A DNA stretch of 27,683 nt from an uncultured Helicobacteraceae bacterium (GTDB lineage Bacteria > Campylobacterota > Campylobacteria > Campylobacterales > Sulfurimonadaceae), in assembly GCA_903903705.1 (NCBI GenBank), contig CAIUZU010000236.1, positions 1-27,683 on the forward strand. The letters run 5' to 3'. The position numbers and the translations under genes were made by a program. The notes beneath the pieces are model-generated. The model saw only the letters and a program-made list of their open reading frames with translations, was not told where the DNA came from and made no database searches. This document shows, in pieces, positions 6,181 to 22,258 of the stretch (the first letter of the stretch is position 1; every line of letters begins with the position of its first letter).

Positions 6181-6209
6181 AACATTCCCTTGTACCATAT
6201 ATTTATCAG

Positions 6210-6289: not shown

Positions 6290-6652
6290 ATGTCAGAAAG
6301 AATTTTTGAAAAAACGGTTGATGTCTATTTTCAGTACGGTGTACTTGGAGTAACCATTGTGTTGCTGATGCTAATCTCAAGCGTTTTGTTGTTCCAAATC
6401 CTCAAAGATAAAAAAAGTGATGAGCAACTTTCTGATGCTCTTCAAAAAACTACAGACAATCAAGAGAAATTCGTTTTGATGTATCAAGAAAGTCAAAAAC
6501 AACACAAAGAAATAGTTGGTATTTTAAATGAAACTTTAGAAATTGAGCGAGCAAATACTAAAGAGTGTTACATAGGCGTAGTCAACAAAATAGATAAAAT
6601 GCACTTAGGTCAAGAACGTCTGTTAGATTTGTTAAAAAGAGACAACAAATGA
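6290..6652 (+). CDS. Small membrane protein, holin candidate
   Basis: In this 120-aa protein one membrane segment (about 17-39, GVLGVTIVLLMLISSVLLFQ) is followed by a long charged coiled-coil-like tail. The start of the membrane part, FQYGVLGVTIVLLML, resembles BhlA/UviB-type holin-like proteins. The stop overlaps the start of the gpV gene (ATGA, 6649-6652), so it opens the tail operon. In R-type pyocin loci a holin also precedes the tail genes (known). The holin role is inferred; a structural or chaperone role cannot be excluded. Confidence 0.5.
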   Translation: MSERIFEKTVDVYFQYGVLGVTIVLLMLISSVLLFQILKDKKSDEQLSDALQKTTDNQEKFVLMYQESQKQHKEIVGILNETLEIERANTKECYIGVVNKIDKMHLGQERLLDLLKRDNK

Positions 6653-7167
6653 TACAGTACGGCAAGATAACTGAGTTCAGATACACAACCGACAAAGCAG
6701 GTAAAAAGCTTGAAGTAAAAGTTAGTGTTGATGAGAGAGTTACAAATTGGCTTCCTGTTAAGACTCAAGCATCCTCGTTTTTAACGATACATACTCCCGT
6801 AAGAATTAATGATCAAGTTATAGTTTTTAACCCATTTGGAAATAATGAAGATGGATTTGTAGATAGAAATCTAACCTATAAAGATATCCCACTTCCCGAC
6901 AAAGCAGACGAAGACACTCTTGTTTTTATATTTGAAGATGAAACAGTTTTTACACACAACACAAAAACTAAAAAAATTGACTTTAAAACTCCGTGTGATC
7001 TAACACTTGAAGCAAACATTTTAACCATCAAAGCCGCTCATACAAAATTTGTAGGCGGTAAAATCTCTCATGACGGTATAGATATCTCCAAAACTCATAA
7101 TCATCCTCAAAACGCAGGTAATCATTACGGTGGCGGTGCGAATACTTCAGCACCAAACGGACTATAA
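6649..7167 (+). CDS. Baseplate central spike protein (P2 gpV-like)
   Basis: This 172-aa protein forms the membrane-piercing tip under the baseplate of contractile tails. An OB-fold-like N-terminal region (1-95) is followed by a repetitive beta-rich section (TVFTHNTKTKKIDFKTP, then LEANILTIKAAHTKF) typical of the triangular beta-helix of gpV. At the C-terminus, H150-x-H152 with a further His at about 159 corresponds to the iron-binding HxH apex described for P2 gpV and phi92 gp138. Length is close to P2 gpV (211 aa). It is the first gene of the V-W-J-I baseplate cassette and is coupled to the gene before it. Confidence 0.88.
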   Translation: MIQYGKITEFRYTTDKAGKKLEVKVSVDERVTNWLPVKTQASSFLTIHTPVRINDQVIVFNPFGNNEDGFVDRNLTYKDIPLPDKADEDTLVFIFEDETVFTHNTKTKKIDFKTPCDLTLEANILTIKAAHTKFVGGKISHDGIDISKTHNHPQNAGNHYGGGANTSAPNGL

Positions 7168-7168
7168 A

Positions 7169-7498
7169 ATGATAGAAATTACGCATAGCACTTTATCGTC
7201 TAAACTCGACGGATATGCAGTTACTGCAGAGGATAGTTTTGTAGATGCATTGACAACTTTAAAAGGAAGCGTGATAGGAAATCCAGAGTACGGAACTATT
7301 TTGCCAAAGCTAAAGCACAAACCATTTAATAATTCTTGGATCATAGATTTTAAGAGATGTTTAAAAGATGCATGCAAGCACGACCCGAGGTTAGAGTTTA
7401 AAAGTGCCGTTGTTGATGATAGCAATGTAGCCGAGGGCAGTATATCTTTTATCGTAAGTTTTGGATACTACACATTAGAAGGTGTCGTAAATGTATAA
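7169..7498 (+). CDS. Baseplate wedge protein (gpW / GPW_gp25 family)
   Basis: The product is 109 aa from ATG 7169, just after the gpV stop. An earlier in-frame ATG at 7130 would overlap gpV and lacks support. The central part, GSVIGNPEYGTILPKLKHKPFN, carries the GPW_gp25 pattern (GE/NPEYGT then helix), and the later part (DPRLEFKSAVVDD, then ISFIVSFGYY) matches the family's C-terminal strands. P2 gpW and T4 gp25 link the baseplate core to the sheath. The stop overlaps the gpJ start (7491-7498). Confidence 0.88.
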   Translation: MIEITHSTLSSKLDGYAVTAEDSFVDALTTLKGSVIGNPEYGTILPKLKHKPFNNSWIIDFKRCLKDACKHDPRLEFKSAVVDDSNVAEGSISFIVSFGYYTLEGVVNV

Positions 7499-8597
7499 CG
7501 ATTTAGAAAAAAAACTCTCTCTTCTACAAGAACCTACAGCTTTTAAAATCAAAAGTTTTGATGAGCTTTTGCACGAAAATATAGAGCTTGCAAAAGAGAT
7601 ACTCGGTAGCGAATGGCTTCCTCTTGAGTCAGACTCATATATGAAAAAACTAAGAGTTTTGACACTAAGACAAATCCACAATCAAGCAGACAAAAAAGAG
7701 ACGGTTAAACAGTTTTTAGTAACGACTGCTACAGGTGTCGATTTGGATCATCTTGGTAGTTCGGTTGGTATCTTTAGAGATAAAGGCGAGTATCCATATA
7801 CGAATTTTGAGTTTAAACTCTTAGCTCCATCGCATGAAGATTTAACGATACCTGCAGGATTGATATTAAATAGTAAAGATGATGGATACAAAGCTCACAC
7901 CGTTAATAGTATTCTCATAAAAGCAGGTAGTTTAAGTGTTATCGTAAGAGCAGAACTAGAAGAGTATGTTACGCAAAGCGATATCAAAACCGAACATTTA
8001 GTTACCGAACTGACTTTTGCAGTGGATATCAAACAGCTTGATATTTTTAAAAACGGTGCGGATGCCGAAAGTGATGATAGATATAGACTTAGGATCATAG
8101 CTTCAAACGATAAACATTCAACTGCAGGCAGTGTCGAAGCTTATAAATATTTTGCATATAGTGCAGACAGCAGGATAAGCGATATTTCCATTCCCGATGA
8201 TAATGAGCCGCTGGATGTAAATATATATCTTGCCTCTTTTGATATTGTTGATGATGTGATGATAGATAAAGTGTATCAAGCTTGTAACGAAAAATACACC
8301 AGACCTCTTGGCGACAATCTAACTGTAGCACCTGCAGAGATAGTGTATGTTGATTTGAGTGCGACCATAGAACTGTTTGATTTGTTGAAACAGGTTGAGA
8401 TAGACAGTAAAATAAAAGCAAATTTCAAAGATTCTTTTTTTATAGGTCAAAATTTTGTCAAAAGTGATTTTATACGAAAGTGTCACATAGACGGTGTTTA
8501 TAAAGTAGATAGCGAGTTTGAGGACATAAAAGTTTCAAACAAACAAGTAATCAAAATAGCTTCTTTTGATTTTACATATAAACAAGCTGCACTATGA
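7491..8597 (+). CDS. Baseplate assembly protein J
   Basis: The 368-aa product has the Baseplate_J arrangement: an N-terminal helical region with a TLRQIHNQAD segment, a TATGVDLDHLGSSVGIFR motif (about 82-99) that is highly typical of gpJ, a beta-rich middle with SDDRYRLRI (193-202), and GSVEAYKYFAYSADSRISD (212-230). P2 gpJ has about 300 aa. It is overlapped by gpW upstream and by gpI downstream (ATGA at 8594), so the wedge proteins are translationally coupled. It builds the baseplate wedge with W and I. Confidence 0.92.
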   Translation: MYNDLEKKLSLLQEPTAFKIKSFDELLHENIELAKEILGSEWLPLESDSYMKKLRVLTLRQIHNQADKKETVKQFLVTTATGVDLDHLGSSVGIFRDKGEYPYTNFEFKLLAPSHEDLTIPAGLILNSKDDGYKAHTVNSILIKAGSLSVIVRAELEEYVTQSDIKTEHLVTELTFAVDIKQLDIFKNGADAESDDRYRLRIIASNDKHSTAGSVEAYKYFAYSADSRISDISIPDDNEPLDVNIYLASFDIVDDVMIDKVYQACNEKYTRPLGDNLTVAPAEIVYVDLSATIELFDLLKQVEIDSKIKANFKDSFFIGQNFVKSDFIRKCHIDGVYKVDSEFEDIKVSNKQVIKIASFDFTYKQAAL

Positions 8598-9403
8598 ATT
8601 TATTACCAAATAACTCAACATTAGCAGACCAACAGTTCGCATCACTGATAGACTCAAAATCAACTCTCTCTTTTAAAGAGTTGTATGTAAATCCTCTAAG
8701 TTGTAATAGTTCACTTTTAGAGCATATAGCACTTTTAAAAGGTGCAAATATTGAAAATATGCTTGAGAGCGAAGCAAGATTATATCTAAGCACTTTTACA
8801 AAAAAATCAGTCGGAACCGTAGGTGCGGTTGAAGATGCCATAAATGTATGTTTTGATGATGCAAAGCTTGTAGAGTGGTTTGACGATAAAGAAAATCTCA
8901 AAAGAGGGATGTTCAATGTAGATGTAAATCTGAAAAACGACACATCACTGATTTACGATGATAGGCTATTTTCCCTTTCTACAAGATTGATCAACAATGC
9001 AAAAAATGTCAGAAGCAAATTAGATGCTTTTACTCTAAAGATACAATCCGCAGGACATGTCGGTTACACATCGGCTTTGGTGCAAGATATCAATCTAAAA
9101 AATGATTTTGAATTTACAGGCAGAGCTTCAGTAGATTTGTCCCTGCTCTCAGCATCAATCTCAAATATCGCCTTAACAAACGAGCTAAAAACACATATAT
9201 CAATGTGTGCTTTTGAAATTTCACACGGTGTTTCTACAGCCGTAAAACTAGAAAATGATGCATATCAAAATCTTCAAAGTGAGATAAATATAAATACAGG
9301 ATTCGGAGGTGTAATGGATGTAAATCTTGATAACGAACTCATCTTTAAAAATGAGGCAAATGTAAATTTAAACATAAGAGGAGGAGTTACATGGGTGTTT
9401 TAA
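8594..9403 (+). CDS. Tail protein I (baseplate periphery) with C-terminal extension
   Basis: The protein has 269 aa, against about 176 in P2 gpI. The N-terminal 175 residues follow the Tail_P2_I pattern: LLPNNSTLADQQFASLID, then SCNSSLLEHIALLKGANIENM in place of the usual LP-x-LAW segment, then KKSVGTVGAVEDAIN-like residues. From about residue 110 on, an Asn/Asp-rich repetitive region recurs with VNLKND-type motifs (VDVNLKND, DINLKND, DVNLDNE, NVNLNIRG). That suggests beta-repeat extension linking to fibres. gpI connects wedges to tail fibres in P2. It overlaps the next gene by 13 bp. Confidence 0.8.
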   Translation: MNLLPNNSTLADQQFASLIDSKSTLSFKELYVNPLSCNSSLLEHIALLKGANIENMLESEARLYLSTFTKKSVGTVGAVEDAINVCFDDAKLVEWFDDKENLKRGMFNVDVNLKNDTSLIYDDRLFSLSTRLINNAKNVRSKLDAFTLKIQSAGHVGYTSALVQDINLKNDFEFTGRASVDLSLLSASISNIALTNELKTHISMCAFEISHGVSTAVKLENDAYQNLQSEININTGFGGVMDVNLDNELIFKNEANVNLNIRGGVTWVF

Positions 9404-9861
9404 CAGCAGTGCCTAACAGCGAGGGTGTTGAACTGCTAAAAAAAGAGTTGTTTGAAAAAATAACTAAATTCGCACTTGCCGATGAAAATGGCGAGATCTA
9501 TTTTACCGACACGGTGCATTCGATTTATTTTGATAGCGACGGAGTCCTTACGGTCTCTGCATTGATACCAAAAGAAGAGCATTTTACAGTGTGGAATAAA
9601 TGGGTAAAACTGCTTAGTGATGAAGATAAGGTTATTGCTGACATAGAAACGCCTGCTATTCAGTTTGTAAAAGGCGTAGGTGGCGAGCAGACCGTAAAAC
9701 TTACGGTTGGCGGTAAGGCTGGAGAGGTGGTATTTAAAAAAGATGAATACATAACACTTGGGGAGATGAACGGTTTGTATATCAGTGCTATCGAAGCACT
9801 GACTACAAAAGTCTTTCAACTTGAAAATAAATTAATAAAAAAAGGGATTTTAGATGTCTAA
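9391..9861 (+). CDS. Fibre-module protein of unknown function
   Basis: The 156-aa protein is not recognised. It has a beta-rich middle (IYFTDTVHSIYFDSDGVLTVSA) and a C-terminal helix (MNGLYISAIEALTTKVFQLENKLIKKG) that may be a coiled coil. It sits exactly where P2 has the start of tail fibre gene H, after gpI. It overlaps gpI and the following fibre gene (8 bp), which supports co-assembly. It is probably a baseplate-to-fibre adaptor; that is inferred from position only. Confidence 0.6.
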   Translation: MGVLTAVPNSEGVELLKKELFEKITKFALADENGEIYFTDTVHSIYFDSDGVLTVSALIPKEEHFTVWNKWVKLLSDEDKVIADIETPAIQFVKGVGGEQTVKLTVGGKAGEVVFKKDEYITLGEMNGLYISAIEALTTKVFQLENKLIKKGILDV

Positions 9862-11377
9862 GATGTTAGAAAATTTAATAGAGCAAGCAACGGAACTTTT
9901 AAAAAGATATGACGGTGCTGTTCTTTTACTAGAAAAAAAAGCCGAGGATTATTCGGTTAGGTTGGCACATGAAACTGATGACAGTATCGCACTACTTAAA
10001 AAAGAGATAGCTATATTGGATGTTGATGAAACGATCAATATTCTCAGATCTGTGTCAAATAAAAATATCGAAGCATTAACGGTTAAAAGTCAAGAGATAA
10101 CTGCTGAGATGGAACAAAAGTTACAAAACTTAGATATAGAGCAGGTTATCGCAGATTTTAAAACTGAAGCGGATGCGATAGTAAAAAGTATTAAAGATGA
10201 AGTTGTTACAACATCTCCAAATAATATAACTAATTTTACAATATTGAGTTCTAAAAATATTAAACTCAATCGTGATGCGAGTTGTATACAAGGTAATTCA
10301 ACCTACAGTTCACTAATTAAAGTTGCTAAAAATCGTTTCGCGATTGCTAAACTTTTATATGGTAGTGGTCGTACGGAAGCTACTCTCACACCTTTTAGCA
10401 TTGACGGAAACGGTAAATTATCGGTTTCAGAACCTGCTCAAATGTTCTTAAACACTTCAGGTGCAGGTATATCAACGACGCAATTCTTTAGTGCTGACAA
10501 CACGGGTAAACTGTTTGCTTATGGGCATAACATGTATCCGGGTCAAAGTTCACATCAATTTGGTTATTTCTATGGTCGTGTTAATGAAAACAACAATGTT
10601 GTAGATGTTGGTTATTCAACAGATCCAAACTACCATCAAAACAATGGACAGTATGGCGGAATGTTAGATGGAGACGGTAACGGATTTTATGCGGATGGAA
10701 GCTCTTACAATCAGTCTGATTCAAAACAGAGAAGTATCCATATTAACTATAGTGGAGACACTCCGAGCTTAAAAGTTCATAACCCAAGTTCAGACACTTC
10801 AACAGGTTATGCATCCCACTTCATAGGTCAAGAAGGTGTGTCAAATGCAGGTATAACAGGTATCGTTCATTATAGAACTAGTGCCAATGCTTACAAAGAG
10901 AGAGCATTTAACAGTGATGGATCTAGCGCTGAATATGAGATCTCAGGTTGGGACAGTGAGATGGTAGCCTTTGTTCTATCTAATGGCAAAGTACTAAATA
11001 TTACAAGAGGTTCAGCAGGTTATATTGCTTGTGTATATGCCGCTTACAACAACAGAACCATAGTGAACGATATAAACTTTGATCTTAATCATTTTTATCC
11101 TTATTGGTCAAATGCAAATATCACAAATGTTGCTAAAGATACTTGGCTAATTTTTAATTATCAAATACGAGCGATATTTACGATGCACATCAATCCTGAT
11201 ACTTACGAAATGACTATTATTGATGGAATTGATAGTGGCTTGTTGACAGGAAATAACTCTCAACTTTCTGTAAAAGTTGGTGGTGCTAGTAATGAATTCT
11301 TGATTGTTTCTCAACATCAAGAGAATAATTTTCAAACGGTTAAAGTTATTAAGAATCCATTAAAGATGAAGAAGTAG
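9854..11377 (+). CDS. Tail fibre / receptor-binding protein
   Basis: In this 507-aa protein the first 120 residues are almost continuously heptad-like and charged (EQATELLKRYDGAVLLLEKKAED, then DIEQVIADFKTEADAIV in separate segments), indicating a trimeric coiled-coil shaft. From about 130 to the end it is rich in Gly, Asn, Ser, Tyr and aromatic strands (GYFYGRVNENNN, YGGMLDGDGNGFYADGS), as in receptor-binding tips. No family is recognised for the tip. Position after gpI and before a small accessory gene matches the fibre plus chaperone layout of contractile tails, and this would set target range. The tip's base and codon texture seems different from the shaft, which would fit module exchange, but this was judged by eye. 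Confidence 0.72.
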   Translation: MSKMLENLIEQATELLKRYDGAVLLLEKKAEDYSVRLAHETDDSIALLKKEIAILDVDETINILRSVSNKNIEALTVKSQEITAEMEQKLQNLDIEQVIADFKTEADAIVKSIKDEVVTTSPNNITNFTILSSKNIKLNRDASCIQGNSTYSSLIKVAKNRFAIAKLLYGSGRTEATLTPFSIDGNGKLSVSEPAQMFLNTSGAGISTTQFFSADNTGKLFAYGHNMYPGQSSHQFGYFYGRVNENNNVVDVGYSTDPNYHQNNGQYGGMLDGDGNGFYADGSSYNQSDSKQRSIHINYSGDTPSLKVHNPSSDTSTGYASHFIGQEGVSNAGITGIVHYRTSANAYKERAFNSDGSSAEYEISGWDSEMVAFVLSNGKVLNITRGSAGYIACVYAAYNNRTIVNDINFDLNHFYPYWSNANITNVAKDTWLIFNYQIRAIFTMHINPDTYEMTIIDGIDSGLLTGNNSQLSVKVGGASNEFLIVSQHQENNFQTVKVIKNPLKMKK

Positions 11378-11386
11378 GGACATAAA

Positions 11387-11956
11387 ATGAATAAAAGAAA
11401 CATAACATTATTAACAGCTTATTTAGCAATATGCACAGTTGAGAGTGATCGTGCAATTTTAGAAATTGCAATAAATGAATGTAAGAGTGGCAACACTCCA
11501 ACTTTACCAATCCATATAACAGCTTCGTTGCTTTTGGGTAGTGATGAACTTTTACCTACAGATACCGACTTCGTATCTGACGAGTTTAAAGCTAGATTGG
11601 AAATAGCTAAACAGGAACTCGCTTATCTGCCAATTGAAGAGCATATCTATTCGATGTATTCAGAAAAGAAACAAGCTCAAGATAACGGGTGGGTTCAAAA
11701 CTTTACAACAAAGTTAAAAGCTGGTGGTATAACTGATGTTGAAACTCAAATCGTAACGATGGCAAGTTCTTTTTTAACAGGTAAAAAACTTAACAAAATT
11801 CTAACAGGTGTTGACGGAGCTGTTAAACCGATGTATGAAAAACTTGTAGAAGTTGCGGTTAAAAATGAATGGGCTTACCTTTGTATTGGAGAGGGTAAAA
11901 AAGCTATAGCTGAGAATAGGGAAGCGGTATATCCTGAGTTTCCAAAATTTGACTAA
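11387..11956 (+). CDS. Possible tail-fibre assembly / accessory protein
   Basis: The 189-aa product has no recognised domain. It has a helical N-terminal half, and its C-terminal part (WVQNFTTKLKAGGITDVETQ, LTGKKLNKILTGVDGAVKPM) looks globular. A GGGA sequence precedes the ATG. It lies between the fibre gene and the sheath gene, the site of gpG-type fibre chaperones in P2-like tails. The chaperone role is inferred from position only; it may instead be a second fibre-related component. Confidence 0.5.
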   Translation: MNKRNITLLTAYLAICTVESDRAILEIAINECKSGNTPTLPIHITASLLLGSDELLPTDTDFVSDEFKARLEIAKQELAYLPIEEHIYSMYSEKKQAQDNGWVQNFTTKLKAGGITDVETQIVTMASSFLTGKKLNKILTGVDGAVKPMYEKLVEVAVKNEWAYLCIGEGKKAIAENREAVYPEFPKFD

Positions 11957-11965
11957 GGAGTACTT

Positions 11966-13156
11966 ATGCCAAACGGAATAAAAATATTACCAACAAAAAA
12001 CAAAAGTGCAACGGCGACGATTATCACGAGTACAACCGTGATAGGTCTTGTCGGCACGGCAGTTTTGGCAAAGATGGATGAAGCTATCTTGGCAAAACTG
12101 GGGGACGAGAGCCAATCTAAACTTTTAAGATTTGGAAATGCTGATGAGGCTTTAGAGTTTTTTGCAGAGCAAGAAGGAACTATAAGAGAAGATCTATGGG
12201 ATATCAAAATGCAAAATGTAAAATCTCCCGTTGTTATCTCTTTAGTAGAGATTGGCGATGCTCACGAGGGTAAAACTCCTCAGACCTTTTATGACGATGC
12301 GGAGTTAAAAAGTGCAGTTGTCGTAGCTGTAGGAAACTTGCAAAAAGCAAGAACGCTTTTTGGTGCAAAAGTAAGAATCGCAATAGCTTCATATTTTTCG
12401 CATGATGATACGGTTAGAAACGCACTCGATAGTTTTGTAACAGGTACTAAAACGATAGCAATCGTAGATATGAATCTAAATAATGTAACAGATGCCATAG
12501 TAGAGCTTCAAGAGCTTGGTTCTATGAGATATCTTGCATTTCCATTTTATCGTGTCGTATGGTCTGTTTTTGAAGATAAAACGGTTACTAAACCTAACTC
12601 AGCAGTCGTGGCAGGTCACATAGCTTATTGGGATGCGATGCTCGGTGAGTTCGGTTCTGCTTTCGACCATGCAAATAAACTCATCTATGATGTAGAGGGT
12701 TGTGTAATTCCTCTCACATACGAAGAGGGCGAAGATACATGCGATGTTAATCAGATTGTAAACGCTGGCGGTGCTCTAATCATAAACGACGACGGAAATC
12801 GTCTTTATAACTTTGAAACACCGAGCGATGATGCAAGATTTAACAAGCTTGAAACGATTCGTTTTTTCGACCTTATAAATGAAAATCTGCAAAAATCTTT
12901 AAAAAAACATAAGCACCGCCCGACAACTGATGTTCTTACACTTGCAAAAGCGGATGCGGAAGCTTTTCTTCTAAAAGCGATCAACTCCGGTGCAGCAATC
13001 GGTGCTAAAGTTTGGTGGTCTAACAAAAACAACGGTGCAGAAATCGCCGCAGGTATCTTGTATATGGATTACGATGCAGGTAACAATGTCGGTGTAAGAG
13101 CGATTGTGATCCAACCTTATGCAACAAATGAATACTACACGGTAGAAGGGTTTTAA
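11966..13156 (+). CDS. Contractile tail sheath protein (P2 gpFI-like)
   Basis: The product is 396 aa, the same length as P2 FI (396). An AAGGAG site precedes the ATG. The N-terminus (STTVIGLVGTAVLAKMDEAI) is the typical 'pxTsvigivGtA' segment of the family. The C-terminus (AGNNVGVRAIVIQPYATNEYYTV) resembles the sheath handshake region. It forms the contracting outer cylinder that drives the tube through the target envelope. The adjacent tube gene follows after 2 bp. Confidence 0.92.
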   Translation: MPNGIKILPTKNKSATATIITSTTVIGLVGTAVLAKMDEAILAKLGDESQSKLLRFGNADEALEFFAEQEGTIREDLWDIKMQNVKSPVVISLVEIGDAHEGKTPQTFYDDAELKSAVVVAVGNLQKARTLFGAKVRIAIASYFSHDDTVRNALDSFVTGTKTIAIVDMNLNNVTDAIVELQELGSMRYLAFPFYRVVWSVFEDKTVTKPNSAVVAGHIAYWDAMLGEFGSAFDHANKLIYDVEGCVIPLTYEEGEDTCDVNQIVNAGGALIINDDGNRLYNFETPSDDARFNKLETIRFFDLINENLQKSLKKHKHRPTTDVLTLAKADAEAFLLKAINSGAAIGAKVWWSNKNNGAEIAAGILYMDYDAGNNVGVRAIVIQPYATNEYYTVEGF

Positions 13157-13158
13157 AA

Positions 13159-13635
13159 ATGACTAAAAACGGATTAGGGCAACCAAGCCAAAACCTCACG
13201 GGTCTATCAATTATGATAGCAGGTAAAAACACATTTGGTTACACAGACGATGGAACAAAAGCTCCAGCGTTTGAGTTTGAAATAGTAAACGAAGAGAGTA
13301 CAGGTCTAGTAAAACAACCTAAAATGACTATTGCAGTCAAAAACTTAGGTGCTGAGTATATTGCTCACATGAGTGCAGGATTACCTTTCGTTTTAAAAGG
13401 AAACATTAGAGAAAGCGGAGAGGACAAACCTCTTCTCATTACTGCTCAAGGTCAGCTTCAAAAGATGAGCGGAGATATAAAAGAGGGCGATTCTGTAAAA
13501 AGAGAGTTTGAGATCCGTGTTGACATGTACTCTGAGATCGTTGATGGACTTCCAACCATCATTTACAGCAGAAATCCTTACAAATGTATTTTAGGCGGCA
13601 TCGACATGGCACCTGATTTTAACTCAAATTTATAG
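13159..13635 (+). CDS. Tail tube protein (P2 gpFII-like)
   Basis: The 158-aa product is near the FII length of 172. Features are GQPSQNLTGLSIMIAGKNT at the N-terminus, KMTIAVKNLGAEYIAHMSAG in the middle and RVDMYSEIVDGLPTIIYSRNPYKCILGGIDM near the end, the last resembling the FII family's closing segment. It polymerises into the inner tube within the sheath. It is followed by the E/E' chaperone genes, the order conserved in P2 and R-type pyocins. Confidence 0.9.
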   Translation: MTKNGLGQPSQNLTGLSIMIAGKNTFGYTDDGTKAPAFEFEIVNEESTGLVKQPKMTIAVKNLGAEYIAHMSAGLPFVLKGNIRESGEDKPLLITAQGQLQKMSGDIKEGDSVKREFEIRVDMYSEIVDGLPTIIYSRNPYKCILGGIDMAPDFNSNL

Positions 13636-13645
13636 GAGGCACTAG

Positions 13646-14115: not shown

Positions 14116-14177
14116 AACAGTCCTGCCCTGTTTAGGTAGGTTGGGTAACCGTAAAAAAAATCAAAAAAGGATCTATC

Positions 14178-14528
14178 ATGGAAAAAGTCAAATCGTTTAA
14201 CGAAAAAGAGCAAAGAGAAGCAGTACATGCGGCTCTTACGGCAGAAGGTGTAGAGGTTACAAAAACTCTAGTAGATAAGATTATGGACAAACAATCTGAA
14301 TTAGCTTTTAATGCACTTGTTGCAGGTTCAAGCATTAAATTCAACGGTTTGGGTACTTTAGAAGTTCGCCCACATACAGAGAGAAAGTACAAGCTTCCAA
14401 ACGGAACTATGGGAACTGCTCCAGCAGGTTTTCATGTAGGATTTGTTGAGTCAGACAAACTTCTTGAAGCTATGAATGCTCCTGTAGAAAACAATACGGT
14501 TCCTGCGACGGTTCCTGCAAAAGTTTAA
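14178..14528 (+). CDS. HU/IHF-like DNA-binding protein
   Basis: The 116-aa protein has the HU fold pattern: helical N-terminal residues 1-45 (AALTAEGVEVTKTLVDKIM), then SSIKFNGLGTLEVRPHTERK, equivalent to HU's 'G.GtF.v..r..r' strand and arm start, then an arm-like PNGTMGTAPAGFHVGFV and a final helix SDKLLEAMN. A Pro/Val/Ala tail (PVENNTVPATVPAKV) is extra. AAAAAGG precedes the ATG. HU-like proteins bend DNA, and it is odd to find one inside a tail operon. It is followed by a strong hairpin, so it may be transcribed to a higher level than the tape measure gene. Confidence 0.75.
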   Translation: MEKVKSFNEKEQREAVHAALTAEGVEVTKTLVDKIMDKQSELAFNALVAGSSIKFNGLGTLEVRPHTERKYKLPNGTMGTAPAGFHVGFVESDKLLEAMNAPVENNTVPATVPAKV

Positions 14529-14545
14529 AAAAAGTAAGGTGTCCA

Positions 14546-14574
14546 AGAGTCGAGAAAATCTCCGTCTCGACTCT
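14546..14574 (+). terminator. Hairpin after the HU-like gene
   Basis: A perfect 10-bp stem AGAGTCGAGA / TCTCGACTCT surrounds a 9-nt loop and is followed by AAATATATTTTT. It is probably a partial terminator or attenuator inside the late operon, as genes resume at 14701. Confidence 0.6.
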
Positions 14575-14579
14575 AAATA

Positions 14580-14681
14580 TATTTTTAAAATCCCAAATGT
14601 GTTTCAGTAGCTGAACAAAAATGTGACATATCGATTTAAATTTAGTGTGACTCTCCGGATGGGTTTGGGATTTTAAAAATA
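14580..14681 (+). repeat. GTGAC-24 repeat element, copy B, inside an 18-bp inverted repeat
   Basis: Boxes GTGT, GTGAC and GTGAC begin at 14599, 14623 and 14647, exactly 24 bp apart, and the last continues CTCTCCGG as in copies A and D. The array fills the loop between perfect 18-bp inverted repeats at 14580-14597 and 14664-14681 (arm TATTTTTAAAATCCCAAA). The whole unit lies between the HU-like gene and the tape measure gene and could fold into a large cruciform or RNA stem. Confidence 0.75.
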
Positions 14682-14700
14682 GATTTTACAAAGGTATTTT

Positions 14701-17316
14701 ATGGCTGAACTTGGTGCGATATCGTTAAACATGTTTTGGAATCCAAGTATAAAGGGTTCGTCATTTCTCCAAGCAAGTATGAAAAACATTCATACTTATG
14801 CGACAAAACTTGATAAAGTAAATATTTTAGGTGCTACGAAATTTTCTCTTCTTGATAGAAATCTAAAACAACTTGATAATCACTTGGGACATATTAGAAG
14901 TCAGACTGCTAAAATAAGTGCTAATCCTATCAGGTTAGATATTTTAACAAGCCGAAATAGTTTAAAAGAAGCTCGCAAAGATATGACTGCGATTGAACAT
15001 GATGCGAAACAAGTTGCATTTTGGACTAAAAAAACAAATGAAAATCTAAATAAACCTATACAAGAATTTCCATATAAAAAAGCACCGATAATAGATACAA
15101 ATAACCAACCTGCTAATCCAAAAGACAAGATTCGAAAAACTCCAAAAAACAATGCTCGGGATATCAGTAATAGTGCAATGGTTGGTGCCACAGCGGCTAT
15201 AAGTGCCATTGTACTTCCTATTAAGGCTAGTATAGATTTTGAAAGCACTATAGCAGATGTTTCTAAAGTTGTAGATTTTTCAGGAGAGGAGGATGTAAAA
15301 AAGTTTTCAAAAGAGTTGTTGGGTCTAACGCATGTGATACCGTTGGTTGTTGGACAATTAGGCGAAATTTCGGCAAGTGGCGGACAGCTCGGAATCGCTC
15401 GAAAAGATATTATAGATTTTACGACTGTCGTCGCAAAAATGAGTACCGCTTTTGATATGAATGCAGACGATGCAGGTGATTCTATGGCGAAACTTATGAA
15501 TGTGTACGGCGGCGGAATTAAAGGCGTTACCGTGCTCGGCGATGCGATAAATCATTTAAGCAACAATTCTGCATCAAAAGCTAATGACATAGTAAATGTT
15601 CTCGGTCGTATCGGCGGTAATGCGAAAGTTTTAAATTTAACTGCAGTTCAAGCATCAAATCTTGCAAGTGCATTTTTAGCTCTAGGTAAACCGCCCGAAA
15701 TGGTCGGAACTGCTCTTAATTCAATGTTTGGAGCATTCGGTAATATTGAGGGGCAATCAGGAAAATTTAAAAGTGCTTTAGCATCCATGGGTCTTAATGC
15801 AGATAAATTTCAAAAAGAGATAAGAGCTAATCCGCAACAAGCTATAAGCAAGTTTTTGACGACATTAAACAGCATGGACAAAGCAGACCAGACAAGAATA
15901 TCTTATAACATGTTCGGTAAAGAATTCGGCGATGATATGTTGCTTCTATCTGGCGGAGTTGAACATTATGCAAAAGCTATTAAATCAACGGCAAGTGAAA
16001 CAAGCTATTTGGGAAGTATGCAAAAAGAGTTCGAAACGAGAGCGGCAACGACTCAAAATAGTCTAATTTTATTGGGAAATAAAACTACAGAATTTTTTAT
16101 TGTTTTGGGTAATACAACTCTTCCTTTCATAAAACAAGCAAGCAGTTACATCGGGGATTTAACAATCGGTATGACTGCAATGACTGAAAAATTCCCTCAA
16201 GCTTCTAAATATATTTTTGGACTCGGCTCAGCGTTCGTAGTCGGCAGTATCGCACTTGCGGCTTTCGGTCTCGTTGCCTCGGGTGTCGGCATGTCGTTAG
16301 CAGTTCTTACTTCTCCGATGTCTTTGATAGTTTTAGGCGTAATGTCAATCGCCGCCGCAGGCACTTATCTTTACACTCAGTTCGAGGGTATTAAAACTTC
16401 AGTTGATAGTTTCTTTACTTCTCTTTCTAGCGGATTGTCGCCCGTGGTTGAAGAGTTCAAAGGGTTGTTCGGCGGTCTGTTTTCAAGTGTAGGCGGTCTG
16501 TTTAGTTCTTTGTCGCCCGTATTCTCAGTTATCGGGACTGTTTTAGATGCCGTCGGAATTAACTTTTCAAATTTAGGAGCAGTTATATCCGGTGTTTTTA
16601 GTATCGCAATTACGCCAATAAAATGGGTTTTGAGCGCACTCACATGGATGATAAATTTAGGCACGATGGTAGTCGATGGTTGGGTGCTCATGGGTCAAGC
16701 TGCCGGCTCTATTTGGAGCGCAATAGCGGACTCAATCAAATCTCCTTTTGTAATTTTGTTTGATTGGATAGATAGTAGGTTTTCAGCGGTTATGGGCGTA
16801 GTTGAGAAAGTAAAAAACATAGCTTCAAGTGTCACAGGGTTATTTGGTTTTGAAGATAAGCCAAAAATCCTAAAAGCAGAACCTTCTGTTGCAAATAATG
16901 TTAACTTCAATAAAAAAGTGTCTGGAGTTGAAACCGCAAAGAGCATAGCAGATGTAAAAACAATCAAACAAGAAAACATGCTAGATAAGCCAAAAGTTCT
17001 GAAGACAGAATCTATAGTAAATAATATCAGCTTTAGAAAAGAGCTTCCTAAAACTTCTTTTTTAAAAGAATTAGAGATACCGACCGTTCCGCTTGAGAGT
17101 GTATCTGATGTTACAAATACTCAACTCAACCAGACTAAAAATCAACTTCAAAACAATACTAATCAAAAACAGATCGCTCAAACGATAACCAATCAGATTA
17201 CGGTTTATGCGAGTGACGGAAAGGTGGACTATGAAGACTTAAAAGAAAAACTAAGAAGAGCCAACAAAGAGTTAGCTCATGATGAGCAAGATTTGCAATT
17301 TGCAGATGTATCTTAA
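14701..17316 (+). CDS. Tail tape measure protein (P2 gpT-like)
   Basis: This 871-aa protein sets tail length. Residues about 150-420 carry the TP901-type tape measure core: IKASIDFESTIADVSKVVDF, then LGLTHVIP, then SASGGQLGIARKDI and DSMAKLMNVYGGG. A hydrophobic stretch with several membrane-like segments follows at about 505-560 and 620-680, as is usual, and the C-terminus is helical and charged. Its size is near P2 gpT (815 aa), so the tail should be of roughly P2-like length. It follows the E/E' genes as in P2, but with the HU-like gene and repeat copy B in between. Confidence 0.92.
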   Translation: MAELGAISLNMFWNPSIKGSSFLQASMKNIHTYATKLDKVNILGATKFSLLDRNLKQLDNHLGHIRSQTAKISANPIRLDILTSRNSLKEARKDMTAIEHDAKQVAFWTKKTNENLNKPIQEFPYKKAPIIDTNNQPANPKDKIRKTPKNNARDISNSAMVGATAAISAIVLPIKASIDFESTIADVSKVVDFSGEEDVKKFSKELLGLTHVIPLVVGQLGEISASGGQLGIARKDIIDFTTVVAKMSTAFDMNADDAGDSMAKLMNVYGGGIKGVTVLGDAINHLSNNSASKANDIVNVLGRIGGNAKVLNLTAVQASNLASAFLALGKPPEMVGTALNSMFGAFGNIEGQSGKFKSALASMGLNADKFQKEIRANPQQAISKFLTTLNSMDKADQTRISYNMFGKEFGDDMLLLSGGVEHYAKAIKSTASETSYLGSMQKEFETRAATTQNSLILLGNKTTEFFIVLGNTTLPFIKQASSYIGDLTIGMTAMTEKFPQASKYIFGLGSAFVVGSIALAAFGLVASGVGMSLAVLTSPMSLIVLGVMSIAAAGTYLYTQFEGIKTSVDSFFTSLSSGLSPVVEEFKGLFGGLFSSVGGLFSSLSPVFSVIGTVLDAVGINFSNLGAVISGVFSIAITPIKWVLSALTWMINLGTMVVDGWVLMGQAAGSIWSAIADSIKSPFVILFDWIDSRFSAVMGVVEKVKNIASSVTGLFGFEDKPKILKAEPSVANNVNFNKKVSGVETAKSIADVKTIKQENMLDKPKVLKTESIVNNISFRKELPKTSFLKELEIPTVPLESVSDVTNTQLNQTKNQLQNNTNQKQIAQTITNQITVYASDGKVDYEDLKEKLRRANKELAHDEQDLQFADVS

Positions 17317-17330
17317 TATAAAGGAAAAAA

Positions 17331-18077
17331 ATGAAAAAAATAAGTGTGCACAGTTTACAAGCTGTAAGAAGTTTCGCGGAGAACCATAGTGTTCATAAAT
17401 TGAGTTTAAAAAAAAGCAATAAGAATGCTAATGCGAGTTTTAAAATAAGAACTAGTTCTAAGCCTTTTCCTGAAACTTTTGCTTATTATGAAGCAGAGTT
17501 GTTTGATGGAGAATATTCTCTTTTAAAAGGTTTTGTTGTAACTGTATTACAAAAATGTTTTACAAAAAAATCTATTAAATTAAGCATTGAAGAGTTAAAC
17601 AAAGTGATTGATTTTATTGAAACAAATATGTATCAAGATGTTTGTTTAGACCAACCGATGTTAACTGATAAGATGAGAGATGGATTTGATTTTGTTGTAG
17701 GTCAGATTATTGTTTTGGGTTGCAGTGTTGAAGACGGTGGGAATAATGAATTTGAGTTACCTGCAATTGTTACAAAAATTCACCCAAGAGATATTAATGA
17801 ACACTATCAATATGACTTCATATTTCCTTTGAGAGGAGCTTGTGAATTTGTTAGTTGGGGAAAAGACGAAAAAAGATATTTGTGGCGTTTTCATCGTAAA
17901 GAAGTAGTAAGACCTCCGACTTGGTTTTTAGATGGATTTTTAAAAGAGACATCTAATTGTTTTACAGTTGCGGATTGTGATTTGGTGTTGGACAACCTAT
18001 TTTATATAGATAAGAATGTAGATAAAAAAGAAGATATGAAACTAATTTATCCATTTAGATATGAAGGAAAAAAATGA
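17331..18077 (+). CDS. Unknown protein inserted in the tail operon
   Basis: The 248-aa protein is not recognised. It begins with a basic segment (KLSLKKSNKNANAS), then mixed alpha/beta sequence with several Cys and Trp residues (LGCSVEDGG, GACEFVSWGKDEKRYLWRFHRKE, RPPTWFLDGF). AAGGAAAAAA precedes the ATG. The stop overlaps the start of the secreted nuclease gene (ATGA, 18074-18077), so the two behave as a coupled pair. P2-like tails have gene U directly after T, so this pair interrupts the conserved order. The DNA looks more AT-rich than the flanking tail genes, judged by eye, consistent with later acquisition. It may be a partner of, or protector against, the nuclease; this is speculation. 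Confidence 0.6.
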   Translation: MKKISVHSLQAVRSFAENHSVHKLSLKKSNKNANASFKIRTSSKPFPETFAYYEAELFDGEYSLLKGFVVTVLQKCFTKKSIKLSIEELNKVIDFIETNMYQDVCLDQPMLTDKMRDGFDFVVGQIIVLGCSVEDGGNNEFELPAIVTKIHPRDINEHYQYDFIFPLRGACEFVSWGKDEKRYLWRFHRKEVVRPPTWFLDGFLKETSNCFTVADCDLVLDNLFYIDKNVDKKEDMKLIYPFRYEGKK

Positions 18078-18613
18078 AAAAAATAATATTGGTTCTAGCC
18101 TTGGTGGCTAGTTTGTTTGCTTTAGACAATTGGGACGAAGCGAAGGTTAAATATGTGCTTGACGGCGATACTTTGATGTTGCAAAAAGGAGATAACGAAC
18201 CTTTCAAAGTTCGTTTAATTGCGATAGATACTTTTGAGACTAAAATCAATGAGAGAGCAGCTTTGCAGTTGCAAACTCTAAAGGATATACATCCCAATAA
18301 TCCGCAACATAAAGATAGATATGTTCATTCATTCAACAAAGTTATGGAACTTGGAAACAAAGCTAAGGATTATGTACAAAATAAGTATCTAGACAGAGTA
18401 GTAAAATATCGCAGTTACGGTTTTGACAAATACGATAGAGAGCTTGTTTGGATTGAAGTTTTGAATTTCTCTTTAGTTCGTAATGGTCTGGCACTCTACT
18501 ATCCAAACAACCAGATATCGCCTCAAGAGAAAGCTTATCTTTTGGATCTAAGTCGTGAAGCAAATCTTGAAAAAAGAGGGATTTACAATAGGTTAGGCAA
18601 TGATTTCAAATAA
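18074..18613 (+). CDS. Secreted staphylococcal-nuclease-like (SNase) nuclease
   Basis: The 179-aa product has a signal peptide (residues 1-17, KKIILVLALVASLFA) followed by an SNase fold. Active-site positions are present: Asp30 in VLDGDTL, Arg47-Asp52-Thr53-Glu55 in VRLIAIDTFE, and Arg122 in FDKYDRELVW, matching the Arg/Glu/Arg triad and calcium ligands of the family. It should degrade DNA or RNA outside the cytoplasm. The C-terminal part runs to KRGIYNRLGNDF. It sits between tape measure and gpU, where P2-like tails carry no gene, and its 3' end overlaps gpU by 14 bp. Whether it is a cargo, a conversion gene or a DNA scavenging enzyme is not evident. Confidence 0.85.
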   Translation: MKKIILVLALVASLFALDNWDEAKVKYVLDGDTLMLQKGDNEPFKVRLIAIDTFETKINERAALQLQTLKDIHPNNPQHKDRYVHSFNKVMELGNKAKDYVQNKYLDRVVKYRSYGFDKYDRELVWIEVLNFSLVRNGLALYYPNNQISPQEKAYLLDLSREANLEKRGIYNRLGNDFK

Positions 18614-19025
18614 ACTTATAAGCGGTCTTGTAAGTAGTCTCATAAGCGGTCTTAGCATGGGCAAGCTTGGAGACTTTGAATTTTATATGTCAAAAAACGA
18701 ATATAAAAAGATATCTCAAACATTAACTGCAGAGCATGGCGTTTTTACTCCCATTAAGGGGCAAAAACGCTTTAGTGATTCAGGCGGTTACACTCGTGAA
18801 CTCTCTCTTGAGGGTGTTTTAGTAGTTCAACCGCTTGGTGCTCTTAAGAGTTTGGAAGATTATTTGATTGCTCGAAAGCCTATACGATTTACTACACTTA
18901 ACCATGATTTTGAAGTTTTGATATCTTCTTTAAACATTACTCAAGAGAAGTTTTTAGATGACGGAAACTACACCGTGCAAACTTACAACATTTCTTTAAA
19001 AGAGGTTTATGATGAGCTTGTATAA
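18600..19025 (+). CDS. Tail protein U (P2 gpU-like)
   Basis: The product is 141 aa. Key segment MGKLGDFEFYMSKNEYKKISQT matches the gpU opening ('lG.f.F...t..y..l'). RFSDSGGYTRELSLEGVLV and LEDYLIARKPIRFT follow the family's middle part. P2 gpU (159 aa) is a tail tube-end or completion protein. It overlaps the nuclease gene and is followed by gpX with a 17-bp overlap, so it is part of the U-X-D cassette despite the insertion upstream. Confidence 0.85.
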   Translation: MISNKLISGLVSSLISGLSMGKLGDFEFYMSKNEYKKISQTLTAEHGVFTPIKGQKRFSDSGGYTRELSLEGVLVVQPLGALKSLEDYLIARKPIRFTTLNHDFEVLISSLNITQEKFLDDGNYTVQTYNISLKEVYDELV

Positions 19026-19236
19026 GTGTAGTGATGGAGATAGAATCGACTTGATAGTGCTTAAACATTATGGCGATTTAAAACACCTGAACGATGTTGT
19101 AGCCGCAAATAAACAGCTTTTTGGCAAGCCTTTGATTTTGCAAAACGGAACTACTATTGAACTCCCGACTTTTGAAACTCAGCTGCGGAATAAAAGTGTG
19201 ACACTACCGGCGAAGATAAGAGAGCCATTATGGTAG
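19009..19236 (+). CDS. Tail protein X (LysM-like)
   Basis: The 75-aa product begins with MM; the second Met (19012) is an equally good start. YKCSDGDRIDLIVLKHYGDLKHLNDVVAANKQL followed by LILQNGTTIELP is the LysM-like pattern of phage tail X proteins (TAIL_X family), in which Q-D-T/D-x-D-x-I-x-x-R/K-x-Y-G is typical. It overlaps gpU upstream and gpD downstream. Confidence 0.85.
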   Translation: MMSLYKCSDGDRIDLIVLKHYGDLKHLNDVVAANKQLFGKPLILQNGTTIELPTFETQLRNKSVTLPAKIREPLW

Positions 19237-20165
19237 TTGATACCATAGAACTTATGATTGACGGCAAAGAGGTGGCAATTGAAAATGTACTTAGCCTCTC
19301 ATTTTCTGATGAAGTCGGTATAAAATCAGACAAAGTTACTCTTAGCGTTTTGCCAAATTTTCCAAAACCAAAACCAAGTGCAAAGGTAGAACTCGTCCTC
19401 AAAAGTTTAAAAAACGATACGGTAGTAGAAGAGTTGAACTGTGGTTTGTTTCATGTGCAAACCGTAACTCGCACAAACAATAAAGCTTTATCAATTACGG
19501 CTACAGGTGTTGAGTTTAACGAAAAACAAAAAGACAAGATATCTCATCATTATGTTGATACAAAACTCTCGAGCATCGTCAAAATTGTTGCTGATAGATT
19601 GGGTCATAAAGTTAAGTTTCAAACTACAGACACACAAATAAAATCACTCAACCAAACAAATGAGAGTGATATCAATTTTCTTGAGAGAATATCTAAAGAC
19701 TACAATGTATTTTTTTCAATCAAAAATGACTTCATATATTTTATAAACAGAGATGATGAGGCTTTACCTGTAACTAAGATTGATGTATCTAAATGTAGCA
19801 GCTCTTCCTTGAAACATTCCACAAAAACTTACTATAACTCATGCGAAGCTTCATGGCATGACTTAGATGGTGGCAAAACCGTAAAAGTTACTGTTGGGGA
19901 TGGTACACCTGTTATAAAAATCAAAAGTGCATACCAAGACGAGGAGGATGCAAAAGCAAAAGCCGAAGCTAAATTAAAATCAATCAACAAAGGCACGGTT
20001 AAAGGCTCTCTTTCTTTAAAAGGATGTGCTGTTTATGCAGGTACTAAAGTAGATCTGTTTAATACATACAACAACGAAGATGATGGTTTGTTTAGTGTAG
20101 AGAGTTGCAATCATAGCTATAACCGTAGTGATGGTTGGAGTACTTCAATTGAAATAGAAAATTAA
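19230..20165 (+). CDS. Tail hub protein D (P2 gpD-like)
   Basis: The product has 311 aa. SLSFSDEVGIKSDKVTLSVLPN near the N-terminus, ISHHYVDTKLSSIVKIVADRLGH in the middle, NQTNESDINFLERISKDYNVFFSIKNDFIYFI and the closing segment FSVESCNHSYNRSDGWSTSIEIE are characteristic of phage late control D / gp27-like hub proteins. The hub forms the centre of the baseplate above the gpV spike. It closes the structural tail operon. Length is close to P2 gpD (387), slightly shorter. Confidence 0.9.
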   Translation: MVVDTIELMIDGKEVAIENVLSLSFSDEVGIKSDKVTLSVLPNFPKPKPSAKVELVLKSLKNDTVVEELNCGLFHVQTVTRTNNKALSITATGVEFNEKQKDKISHHYVDTKLSSIVKIVADRLGHKVKFQTTDTQIKSLNQTNESDINFLERISKDYNVFFSIKNDFIYFINRDDEALPVTKIDVSKCSSSSLKHSTKTYYNSCEASWHDLDGGKTVKVTVGDGTPVIKIKSAYQDEEDAKAKAEAKLKSINKGTVKGSLSLKGCAVYAGTKVDLFNTYNNEDDGLFSVESCNHSYNRSDGWSTSIEIEN

Positions 20166-20178
20166 AGGAGTTAAAAAG

Positions 20179-20565
20179 TTGAAAGTAGGTTTTAGAGAAA
20201 AAAGAATTTTATTATCGGTTTCGCAAAACGGAGATATTAGAACAACTTGGTCAGAGCTGACATATTACACAGAGGTTGTAGAACCTCAGTTGATTTTAGT
20301 ACCTATCGGTTTTGAAACTGATTTGGGAAGTATTCCCCGAATATTTCAAAGTTTTATACCAAAAGACGGAATAGCCATCTTCGCTTATATTCTGCATGAT
20401 TATCTTTATAAAACAGGATTATTTACAAGAGCACAAACTGATCGCATACTTGATGAAGCGATGAAGTCGTTGGGTGCTAGTTTGGTTCACAGAAAAGCCG
20501 TGTTAAACGGTTTAAGAGTCGGTGGTTGGGTGGCTTGGAACAAACATAGAAAGGCAGATAAATGA
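20179..20565 (+). CDS. DUF1353 protein
   Basis: The product is 128 aa and starts with TTG 20179, preceded by a strong AAGGAG at 20164-20170. IGFETDLGSIPRIFQSFIP, YILHDYLYKTGLFTRAQTDRILDEAM and GLRVGGWVAWNK fit DUF1353, a family frequent in phages next to lysis or tail genes, with no established function. It ends overlapping the lipoprotein gene (ATGA, 20562), which suggests a place in the lysis/maturation cassette. Confidence 0.85.
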   Translation: MKVGFREKRILLSVSQNGDIRTTWSELTYYTEVVEPQLILVPIGFETDLGSIPRIFQSFIPKDGIAIFAYILHDYLYKTGLFTRAQTDRILDEAMKSLGASLVHRKAVLNGLRVGGWVAWNKHRKADK

Positions 20566-20816
20566 AAAAACTTTTGATGGGTATCTTAGTTTTGTTTTTG
20601 GTTCTGTTGCTGAGCGGTTGTTCTACTGCTTACGGTACGGGAAAAGTAATCTATAAAGGTGCAAAAACTGCATATATAGAGCTAGACCTTGAAGATGAGA
20701 ACTTAGAGAGAATAGATAATATATTTGTTGTTTATGACAAAGTTAGAACTTCAGTTGTTGAGGAAGTGCAAAGAAAAAAGCAGGTTGCGAGTATTTTAAA
20801 AGTACAAGAGCCTTAG
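20562..20816 (+). CDS. Small lipoprotein, outer-membrane spanin candidate
   Basis: The product is 84 aa. A hydrophobic signal ends in the lipobox LLSGC with Cys20, so it should be a lipoprotein. The mature part (64 aa) is charged and partly helical. A small lipoprotein beside a muramidase in a phage lysis region is often an o-spanin (known). No partner i-spanin was recognised, unless the holin-like gene or another small gene serves. Role is inferred. Confidence 0.65.
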   Translation: MKKLLMGILVLFLVLLLSGCSTAYGTGKVIYKGAKTAYIELDLEDENLERIDNIFVVYDKVRTSVVEEVQRKKQVASILKVQEP

Positions 20817-20835
20817 TAAGATGTTGGTGGTAAAA

Positions 20836-21336
20836 ATGGAAAAATTCAATAAAGCATTTGAAGTAGTTATAGGCAATGAAGGTGGGTATGTTTTTGACAA
20901 GGACGACAAAGGCGGTGAGACTAAATTTGGCATATCAAAACGAAGTTATCCCGATTTGGATATCAAAAATCTTTCTTTAGAAGAGGCTCGAGAGATTTAC
21001 CTCACGGATTTTTGGAATACAGAACGAGGAAATCTCGAAATGTTGCCTGAAAGTGTAGCAATAGAAGTTTTTGATACCGGTGTCAATATGGGCATAGAGA
21101 TGGGTAGAAAGATTTTGCAAAGGTCTTTAAACTTGTTAAATAGGATTGAAACATTGTATCCAGATTTGAAAGTTGACGGTTGGTTAGGCGATACAACACT
21201 TAAAGCACTTGAGAAAGTAGAGACAAGTAAACTGCTCAAAGTGCTTAACGGTCTTCAGTTCATGAAATACTACAGCATAGTAGAGCATGATCACAGTCAA
21301 GAAAAGTTTTTTGCAGGCTGGATTGAAAGGGTCTGA
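20836..21336 (+). CDS. Endolysin: GH108 N-acetylmuramidase
   Basis: The product is 166 aa from ATG 20836, which follows GGTGG; ATG 20821 adds five residues and lacks a clear site. The N-terminal FEVVIGNEGGYVFDKDDKGGETKFGIS is the GH108 signature, with catalytic Glu in NEGGY (about residue 15). DTGVNMG and GWLGDTTLKALE (peptidoglycan-binding-like end) follow. It cleaves the glycan strands for host lysis. No signal peptide is seen, so a holin is needed. It is the last gene of the plus-strand operon. Confidence 0.9.
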   Translation: MEKFNKAFEVVIGNEGGYVFDKDDKGGETKFGISKRSYPDLDIKNLSLEEAREIYLTDFWNTERGNLEMLPESVAIEVFDTGVNMGIEMGRKILQRSLNLLNRIETLYPDLKVDGWLGDTTLKALEKVETSKLLKVLNGLQFMKYYSIVEHDHSQEKFFAGWIERV

Positions 21337-22255: not shown

Positions 22256-22258
22256 AGT

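Follow-up and report, generated by a model that had tools for sequence, protein, structure and literature searches.

The stretch of DNA analysed here, referred to as the window, is the entire contig C236 of its own genome bin (G000:C236), 27,683 bp in length. It carries genes for a contractile tail and for lysis, flanked on the left by replication genes and on the right by partition and protelomerase genes, and is probably most of a linear plasmid from a Sulfurimonas-type bacterium. The tail genes form one plus-strand block (6649-21336), in which Pfam, PHROGs and NCBIfam matches identified spike, W, J, I, sheath, tube, tape measure, U, X and D proteins together with a GH108 endolysin. An earlier interpretation made without database searches (the sequence-only reading) had placed tail genes in P2/R-pyocin-like order at 6290..21336, where these matches indeed located them; the gene order of P2 phage and the pyocins served for the comparison. 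The window thus holds a complete contractile tail and baseplate, as expected of an R-type tailocin.

The baseplate genes encode a gpV-like spike (6649-7167; phrog_9992, 4e-11), a W or gp25-like wedge protein (7130-7498; phrog_43, 9e-8; Pfam GPW_gp25, 0.026), baseplate J (7491-8597; PF04865, 2e-21) and tail protein I (8594-9403; PF09684, 1.5e-9). They are followed by a fibre-adjacent protein with homologues in headed phages (9391-9861), a tail fibre without a family match, which is the probable receptor-binding protein (9854-11377), and a probable fibre chaperone without a confident family (11387-11956). The sheath (11966-13156; phrog_23, 1e-29; Pfam sheath, 5e-5), the tube (13159-13635; PF04985, 4.5e-7), a gpE-like tail assembly protein assigned by its position and a weak phrog_19421 match (13646-13939; 4e-4) and the tape measure protein (14701-17316; PF10145, 6e-28; TIGR01760, 2e-61) come next, and tail proteins U (18600-19025; PF06995, 5e-10) and X (19009-19236; PF05489, 5e-8) and the baseplate hub D (19230-20165; phrog_52, 1e-59; Pfam GPD) complete the set. 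For W, the sheath and D the Pfam scores were under the curated cut-offs, and each is backed by its PHROG match. Release by lysis is represented by the GH108 muramidase (20821-21336; PF05838, 7e-21; PF09374, 4e-12), in agreement with the muramidase proposed earlier. A small protein with an N-terminal membrane segment (6290-6652, plus strand), without a confident family and conserved in position among relatives, is a holin candidate, and a lipoprotein with weak Rz-like matches (20562-20816; 0.018 and 0.035) is a spanin candidate. The endolysins differ between related elements.

No terminase, portal or capsid was found among the 40 window open reading frames (ORFs) scanned against Pfam or among the PHROGs and NCBIfam matches, which bears out the claim that such genes are missing from the 27.7 kb. 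Five weak matches carried a head-related label: phrog_55 (head closure) on the tube, which Pfam names tail tube FII (5e-6), phrog_19421 (head decoration) on gpE (4e-4), phrog_578 (head closure) on the tape protein (0.007), phrog_24741 on the gene at 5362-6198 (0.033) and PF02924 on the sheath (0.044, under cut-off). None of these is a terminase, portal or capsid family.

The right end of the window encodes a protelomerase, or telomere resolvase (26337-27623, minus strand), with a match over the cut-off to PF16684 (2e-8), as in linear plasmids with a protelomerase of the ResT/TelK/TelN family. Its residues R285, K310, H374, R377 and Y421, which we take to be catalytic, are invariant in a seven-row alignment. 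It adjoins a ParA-like ATPase (25725-26336, minus strand; CbiA, 0.002; ParA_partition, 3e-5, both under cut-off), beside which lies a putative small partition partner conserved in position and without a Pfam match (25426-25725, minus strand). The left end encodes a replication helicase of the DUF5906/P4-type primase C-terminal kind (126-2015, minus strand; PF19263, 3e-21; TIGR01613, 2.5e-10, under cut-off) and a primase with a CHC2 zinc finger (2012-3058, minus strand; PF01807, 1.4e-6), so that replication genes on the left and protelomerase and par genes on the right lie as previously described. Beside the helicase stop codon, at the contig end, a repeat-rich stretch (1-125) matches relatives G004 (1207-1287), G006 (1203-1293) and G009 (778-859) and may contain origin iterons.

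Between the replication genes and the tail lies a LexA/CI-type S24 repressor (4223-4948, plus strand; PF00717, 5e-12; PF01381, 1e-10). Its Ala-Gly site, Ser and Lys, presumably with the same roles as in LexA and CI, are kept in all 12 copies compared, so that DNA damage is likely to free the tail operon from repression. Repressor control, as suggested by the sequence-only reading, is consistent with this conservation, and induction would follow from it.

Searches with telN, sheath and helicase queries revealed 21 IMG/VR records that hold the whole or part of this kind of tail, the longest of 27,498 bp. They are not all independent, since G001 and G007 share 17 kb at 99.9% identity, and the broken end of G413 matches that of G003. 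The protelomerase is whole or partial in 14 of them, and the other seven end before it. Four further sequences stand outside this set: L033 (a 9.4-kb contig without ends), G243:C144, and L131 and L132, both found by the fibre, of which L132 is headed and L131 is a 7.1-kb piece like L132.

A survey of 19 sequences (17 IMG/VR records, L033 and the window) looked for perfect palindromes whose arms measure 12 nucleotides or more. All nine that it revealed lay no more than 5 nucleotides from a contig end, with none internal, and they came from seven of the 17 IMG/VR records. Such terminal palindromes are expected when reads run around a hairpin. G006 (26,659 bp) and G410 (27,145 bp) have a palindrome at each end, and G004 (26,593 bp) has the right one and starts approximately 18 nucleotides short of the left centre seen in G006. 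G413 carries the left palindrome with 127-nucleotide arms and G003 the right one; these two are among the closest relatives of the window (helicase 86%, telN 84%) and are probably one molecule, because their broken ends match in two near-identical blocks (252 bp at 99.6% and 247 bp at 100%). Most telomere palindromes have one common core. G410, with a telN only 38% identical to that of the window, has a different core on both sides, which would fit a joint change of enzyme and site. A fold-back at a single contig end can be an assembly artefact, a possibility countered here because position and core recur across different samples.

Compared with G004, G006, G410 and G413/G003, the window is shorter by approximately 1.1-1.3 kb at its left end and by 0.3-0.4 kb at its right end, in total approximately 1.4-1.7 kb. 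The missing left part holds, in the relatives, one small gene without assigned function; the left-end gene of a relative was not found in the window's own bin by a search run without a positive control. By this comparison the complete element would be about 29 kb in length, and its relatives about 25-28 kb. A 97%-identical fibre occurs on a 29,624-bp contig, close to the size estimated for the window's element.

The relatives were also searched for head and packaging genes. The large terminase subunit (TerL) family phrog_2, which detected 11 of 14 named control genomes, was silent in 19 of 19 sets (17 IMG/VR records, the own bin and one Sulfurospirillum bin). At genome scale it misses the TerL of the nearest headed relatives, G137 and G305, and therefore phrog_38, the best family of these two TerL proteins, and Portal_Mu were used with G137 and G305 as positive controls. 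In the controls phrog_38 gave 1e-90 and 3e-124 and Portal_Mu also matched both, whereas phrog_38 was silent in all 21 IMG/VR records and in the own bin, and Portal_Mu in all 21 records. Eleven head proteins of G137 and G305 gave a best E value of 0.47 against 20 sequences and of 0.63 against four further ones, while a search of one control with the TerL, portal, gpF or protease of the other does recover the counterpart. In G006 and G004, ten unassigned ORFs showed no head family in PHROGs, save the label 'internal virion lysozyme motif' on an endolysin; their other unassigned ORFs were judged by size and BLAST. The unassigned ORFs of at least 250 amino acids in G006 and G410 are all fibre-region proteins or phosphoadenosine-phosphosulfate-reductase-like. 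The family phrog_12 also gave 0 of 19, and its label is not established, so it is not used as head evidence. Since phrog_38 is also silent in G420 (L132), a headed record with portal and capsid genes, absence from a fragment proves little, and it is the records with both ends that carry weight. A terminase, portal or capsid set on the same replicon, the finding named beforehand as decisive against a tailocin, was thus sought in relatives including two with hairpin-type ends on both sides, and none was found. Neither the window nor its relatives revealed the virion head and packaging genes of a telomere phage, and this includes G006 and G410.

These results bear on whether the window is an ordinary telomere phage with its head genes outside the contig. 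Such phages with contractile tails do exist: Valp1 is reported to have a contractile tail, a 60-nm head and a 42,988-bp genome, and phiHAP-1, VHML and Vp58.5 are grouped by a reference list with telomere phages having contractile tails. Like the window, Valp1 combines a protelomerase, a linear plasmid state and a contractile tail, and a 45.9-kb contig with a protelomerase homologue (P0054; content not read) also speaks for a phage. In contrast to Valp1, however, no head genes were found in elements of approximately 25-29 kb, G006 and G410 lack recognizable head genes between two hairpin-type ends, and the window lacks only about 1.4-1.7 kb, so that we regard a telomere phage as very unlikely.

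Head genes could also reside on a second replicon of the same cell, which would make the window one half of a split phage. The own bin (429 contigs, 1.76 Mb) has a completeness of 79%, and a second replicon could be missing from it. TerL (PF03354, phrog_2 and phrog_38) and Portal_Mu are all silent in this bin, and we know of no tailed phage split over two replicons; this arrangement appears highly improbable. The RNA polymerase beta subunit of the bin is 94-95% identical to proteins named Sulfurimonas, and therefore the host is probably Sulfurimonas, as far as the binning of a plasmid-like contig can be trusted.

With a complete contractile tail and no head genes found, the plasmid most likely makes a bacteria-killing syringe rather than a virus. 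We consider it likely that an R-type tailocin under S24 repression is the main cargo of a self-replicating, hairpin-ended protelomerase linear plasmid. In the quiet state, the helicase and primase would replicate the plasmid, the protelomerase would resolve its ends, and the Par proteins would partition it, with the S24 repressor silencing the tail operon. DNA damage would be expected to trigger self-cleavage of the repressor and expression of the tail and lysis genes, followed by lysis of the producer. The freed headless tails would then bind and pierce sensitive kin, much as R-pyocins kill by piercing. The plasmid would gain in the manner of a colicin plasmid, with plasmid-free and foreign kin dying and plasmid-bearing siblings protected. 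A candidate for sparing the carriers, on a speculative view, is the slot between repressor and tail, where small proteins with a membrane start often differ between elements when compared by eye. In the window it holds a protein with an N-terminal membrane segment (5362-6198, minus strand) matching phrog_3403 (1e-14), a family without assigned function.

Between I and the sheath, most elements differ from one another. The fibre and chaperone of the window are approximately 59% and 54% identical to those of the headed, integrase-bearing L132 (fibre P0217; IMG/VR 3300021978_000002), and the chaperone, whose role is suggested by its place beside both fibres, appears to travel with the fibre. The structure modelled was that of P0217, which heads the alignment and is 59% identical to the window's fibre; the model has a helical N-terminus and a beta-rich remainder at a mean predicted local distance difference test (pLDDT) score of 57.7, and its mostly propeller-like structural matches are suggestive.

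Two relatives, G010 (locus L024, oriented 1390-4970) and G413 (locus L069, oriented 10974-13720), encode a reverse transcriptase (RVT_1) and bAvd by Pfam. Where their template repeats and the fibre gene's 3' end differ, the template has an adenine at 17 of 17 positions in G010 and at 11 of 13 in G413, a sequence pattern that identifies in both a diversity-generating retroelement directed at the tail fibre. Among the other plasmid-type elements searched, none has the reverse transcriptase, save the G413 copy continuing in G003, and the window is without one. Among chromosomal tails, those of G190 (same genus) and of G305 have homologues of the reverse transcriptase, Avd and fibre, and that of G137 has homologues of Avd and fibre. 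In G190 the chromosomal contractile-tail cluster with fibre-retroelement genes (L091; G190:C7, 355000-374781) is cut by the contig end. Both TerL families (phrog_2 and phrog_38) and Portal_Mu are silent in the G190 genome, which may therefore hold a chromosomal tailocin.

The fibre and chaperone likeness to L132 implies that such headed phages meet these plasmids, and it speaks for a satellite in reverse. Capsid-forming satellites borrow tails; here the plasmid would supply the tails, diversified by a retroelement in some members, and a helper phage in the same cell would provide the heads and perhaps the packaging as well. With the helper the element would act as a transducing particle, and in its absence as a killer. 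Such a life cycle would also give it a way to spread, which killing on behalf of the host does not provide by itself. On the other side, no terminase, portal or head-closure gene was recognized with confidence and no head-tail joint was identified, while the lysis set and the S24 repressor fit a plain tailocin, and we judge a tail donor of this kind to be clearly improbable.

At least 94 protelomerase homologues were found among 5.8 billion proteins searched. Among those listed, 13 have a longest contig of more than 20 kb, of which 11 fall at 22.1-27.8 kb (some probably the same as the IMG/VR records) and the other two at 29.8 and 45.9 kb. Of 398 genomes in the order, 31 gave a sheath match and four a protelomerase match, the four being the own bin and three distant genomes. 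One contig of a Sulfurospirillum bin has the same tail. From another family, the 31-kb contig G243:C144 combines a related tail with a distant protelomerase and Par genes; its ends show inverted similarity (score 35 versus a null maximum of 23), and no head genes were found in it by head-protein BLAST, Portal_Mu or phrog_38. The first 25 kb of the window gave no megablast match to 50,697 phage records, and telN gave no tblastn match in plasmid and phage records. The sheath matched 61 phage records by tblastn, all under 60% identity, the best being Helicobacter pullorum phages at 33%.

In the sheath tree, the 19 plasmid-type sheaths form one fully supported group, and G243, G416 and G417 lie nearer to chromosomal and headed ones, suggesting one or two origins of the tail plasmids. 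The tree itself needs two changes, and 22% of the bootstrap trees have one. The ratio of nonsynonymous to synonymous substitution rates (dN/dS) was at most 0.30 in 61 of 67 ratios (16 genes, seven pairs, by a simple count; two gene pairs gave no ratio), with the synonymous rate dS above 1, where the ratio is rough, in 31 of the 67. The tail-plasmid genes thus appear to be mostly under purifying selection. This, together with the single sheath group and with tail ORFs that are for the most part unbroken even in records that have diverged widely, argues against a functionless, decaying defective phage. Prophages can decay by losing their head genes, and the J and tube genes of G410 have apparent frameshifts; even so, decay seems extremely unlikely as an account of the family.

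The window resembles the R-type pyocins and other P2-type tailocins in its contractile tail, fibre with chaperone, lysis genes, lack of a head and probable DNA-damage-type regulator, and differs from them in that its genes point to a self-replicating, hairpin-ended plasmid with its own repressor. Tailocins are usually viewed as host-domesticated chromosomal loci, and the known R-type tailocins, to our knowledge, sit in chromosomes. The related tails of G137 and G305, Mu-like headed prophages of the same order (sheath 31-35% identical), differ in having TerL, portal and capsid genes and in lying on long chromosomal contigs. Extracellular contractile injection systems (eCIS) of the Afp/PVC type differ from the window in their type of tail and lack a hairpin plasmid and a phage lysis cassette; they are marked by an AAA+ ATPase, which was absent from the Pfam scans of the 40 window ORFs. 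A toxin-delivering eCIS would accord with the PAAR-motif protein encoded directly after the spike gene in relative G408 (oriented 7440-7724) and, as far as the cited text goes, with the occurrence of Afp-type systems, likewise headless contractile particles, on plasmids (PMC10598620). Against it stand the P2-type tail with tape measure, U, X and D and the phage endolysin, which leave an eCIS with next to no probability.

The claim of the sequence-only reading that known R-type tailocins are chromosomal thus does not extend to all contractile particles, given the plasmid-borne Afp-type eCIS. The word plasmid is absent from the portion covered of a tailocin review (PMC12090994). Among the open-licence PubMed Central papers listed, with preprints and subscription papers lying outside, neither a protelomerase-borne tailocin nor a retroelement in a tailocin was found.

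Several points weigh against a plasmid-borne tailocin, in addition to the share of rough dN/dS ratios and the possible fold-back artefact given above. No tail-closing protein was identified in the window. The main open threat is the 45,892-bp contig of P0054 (telN 50% identical), which, like the 29,790-bp contig of P0081, was not read. End palindromes are absent from ten of the 17 surveyed records and from all four later ones, and the window, which is without one, stops short of both expected ends, so that its own ends are not telomeres. Approximately 170 bp between the overlap blocks of G413 and G003 are present in the former and absent from the latter. Among the head searches, Portal_Mu detected none of the 14 named control genomes, neither of the capsid proteins of G137 and G305 recovers the other, so that a diverged capsid could be missed, and phrog_38 gave a weak match (4.7e-4, 62 positions) on another contig of G114, the bin of the Sulfurospirillum tail contig. 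Ratios of dN/dS above 0.30 were obtained for the tape (0.48 twice), X (0.70), J (0.41) and the spike (0.34 and 0.36). Finally, with the bin 79% complete, the host and a possible second replicon are uncertain.

The remaining genes of the window are regulatory, accessory or cargo. A Mor-like or helix-turn-helix regulator (3444-3938, minus strand; PF08765, 8e-5, under cut-off) and a small helix-turn-helix protein (3938-4243, minus strand; PF01381, 6e-6) precede the repressor, beside which lies a VapD-like cargo protein (4956-5273, plus strand; NF041506, 1.5e-20, under cut-off; PF09827, 3.5e-6). The tail block also encodes an HU-like DNA-binding protein (14178-14528; PF00216, 1.2e-5), a protein without a confident family present in some relatives (17331-18077), an SNase-like nuclease (18074-18613; PF00565, 4e-10) and a DUF1353 protein (20179-20565; PF07087, 6e-19). 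Downstream of it are a Dam-type adenine methylase (21593-22255, plus strand; PF02086, 1e-19), whose true start is probably upstream (21464-21593), several relatives having a longer N-terminus, and a C-5 cytosine methylase carried as cargo (22569-23444, minus strand; PF00145, 1e-16). Small genes are also present to the right of the tail block. Phosphoadenosine phosphosulfate reductase-like cargo is present in G006 (by family scan) and in G410 and G411 (by sequence likeness). A repeated dyad with a GTGAC-type block (5290-5361, 14600-14660, 22256-22300 and 22530-22591) marks borders where cargo differs between the window and its near-copies G001 and G007, with an HNH-like ORF before the tape gene in these two and the cytosine methylase in the window, and is perhaps a cassette site. 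The dyad at 14600 and 22260 was considered as a conserved operator and rejected, as it recurs in only three of 14 elements (the window, G001 and G007).

If the proposed reading is true, a plasmid family with a tailocin as its main cargo would be the tail-particle counterpart of the colicin plasmids, and with the mobile element owning the weapon, the tailocin would be shaped by selection acting on the plasmid as well as on the host. A retroelement rewriting the fibre tip in two members would represent a bacteriocin with built-in target diversification, and the persistence of phage tails as mobile weapons becomes directly testable.

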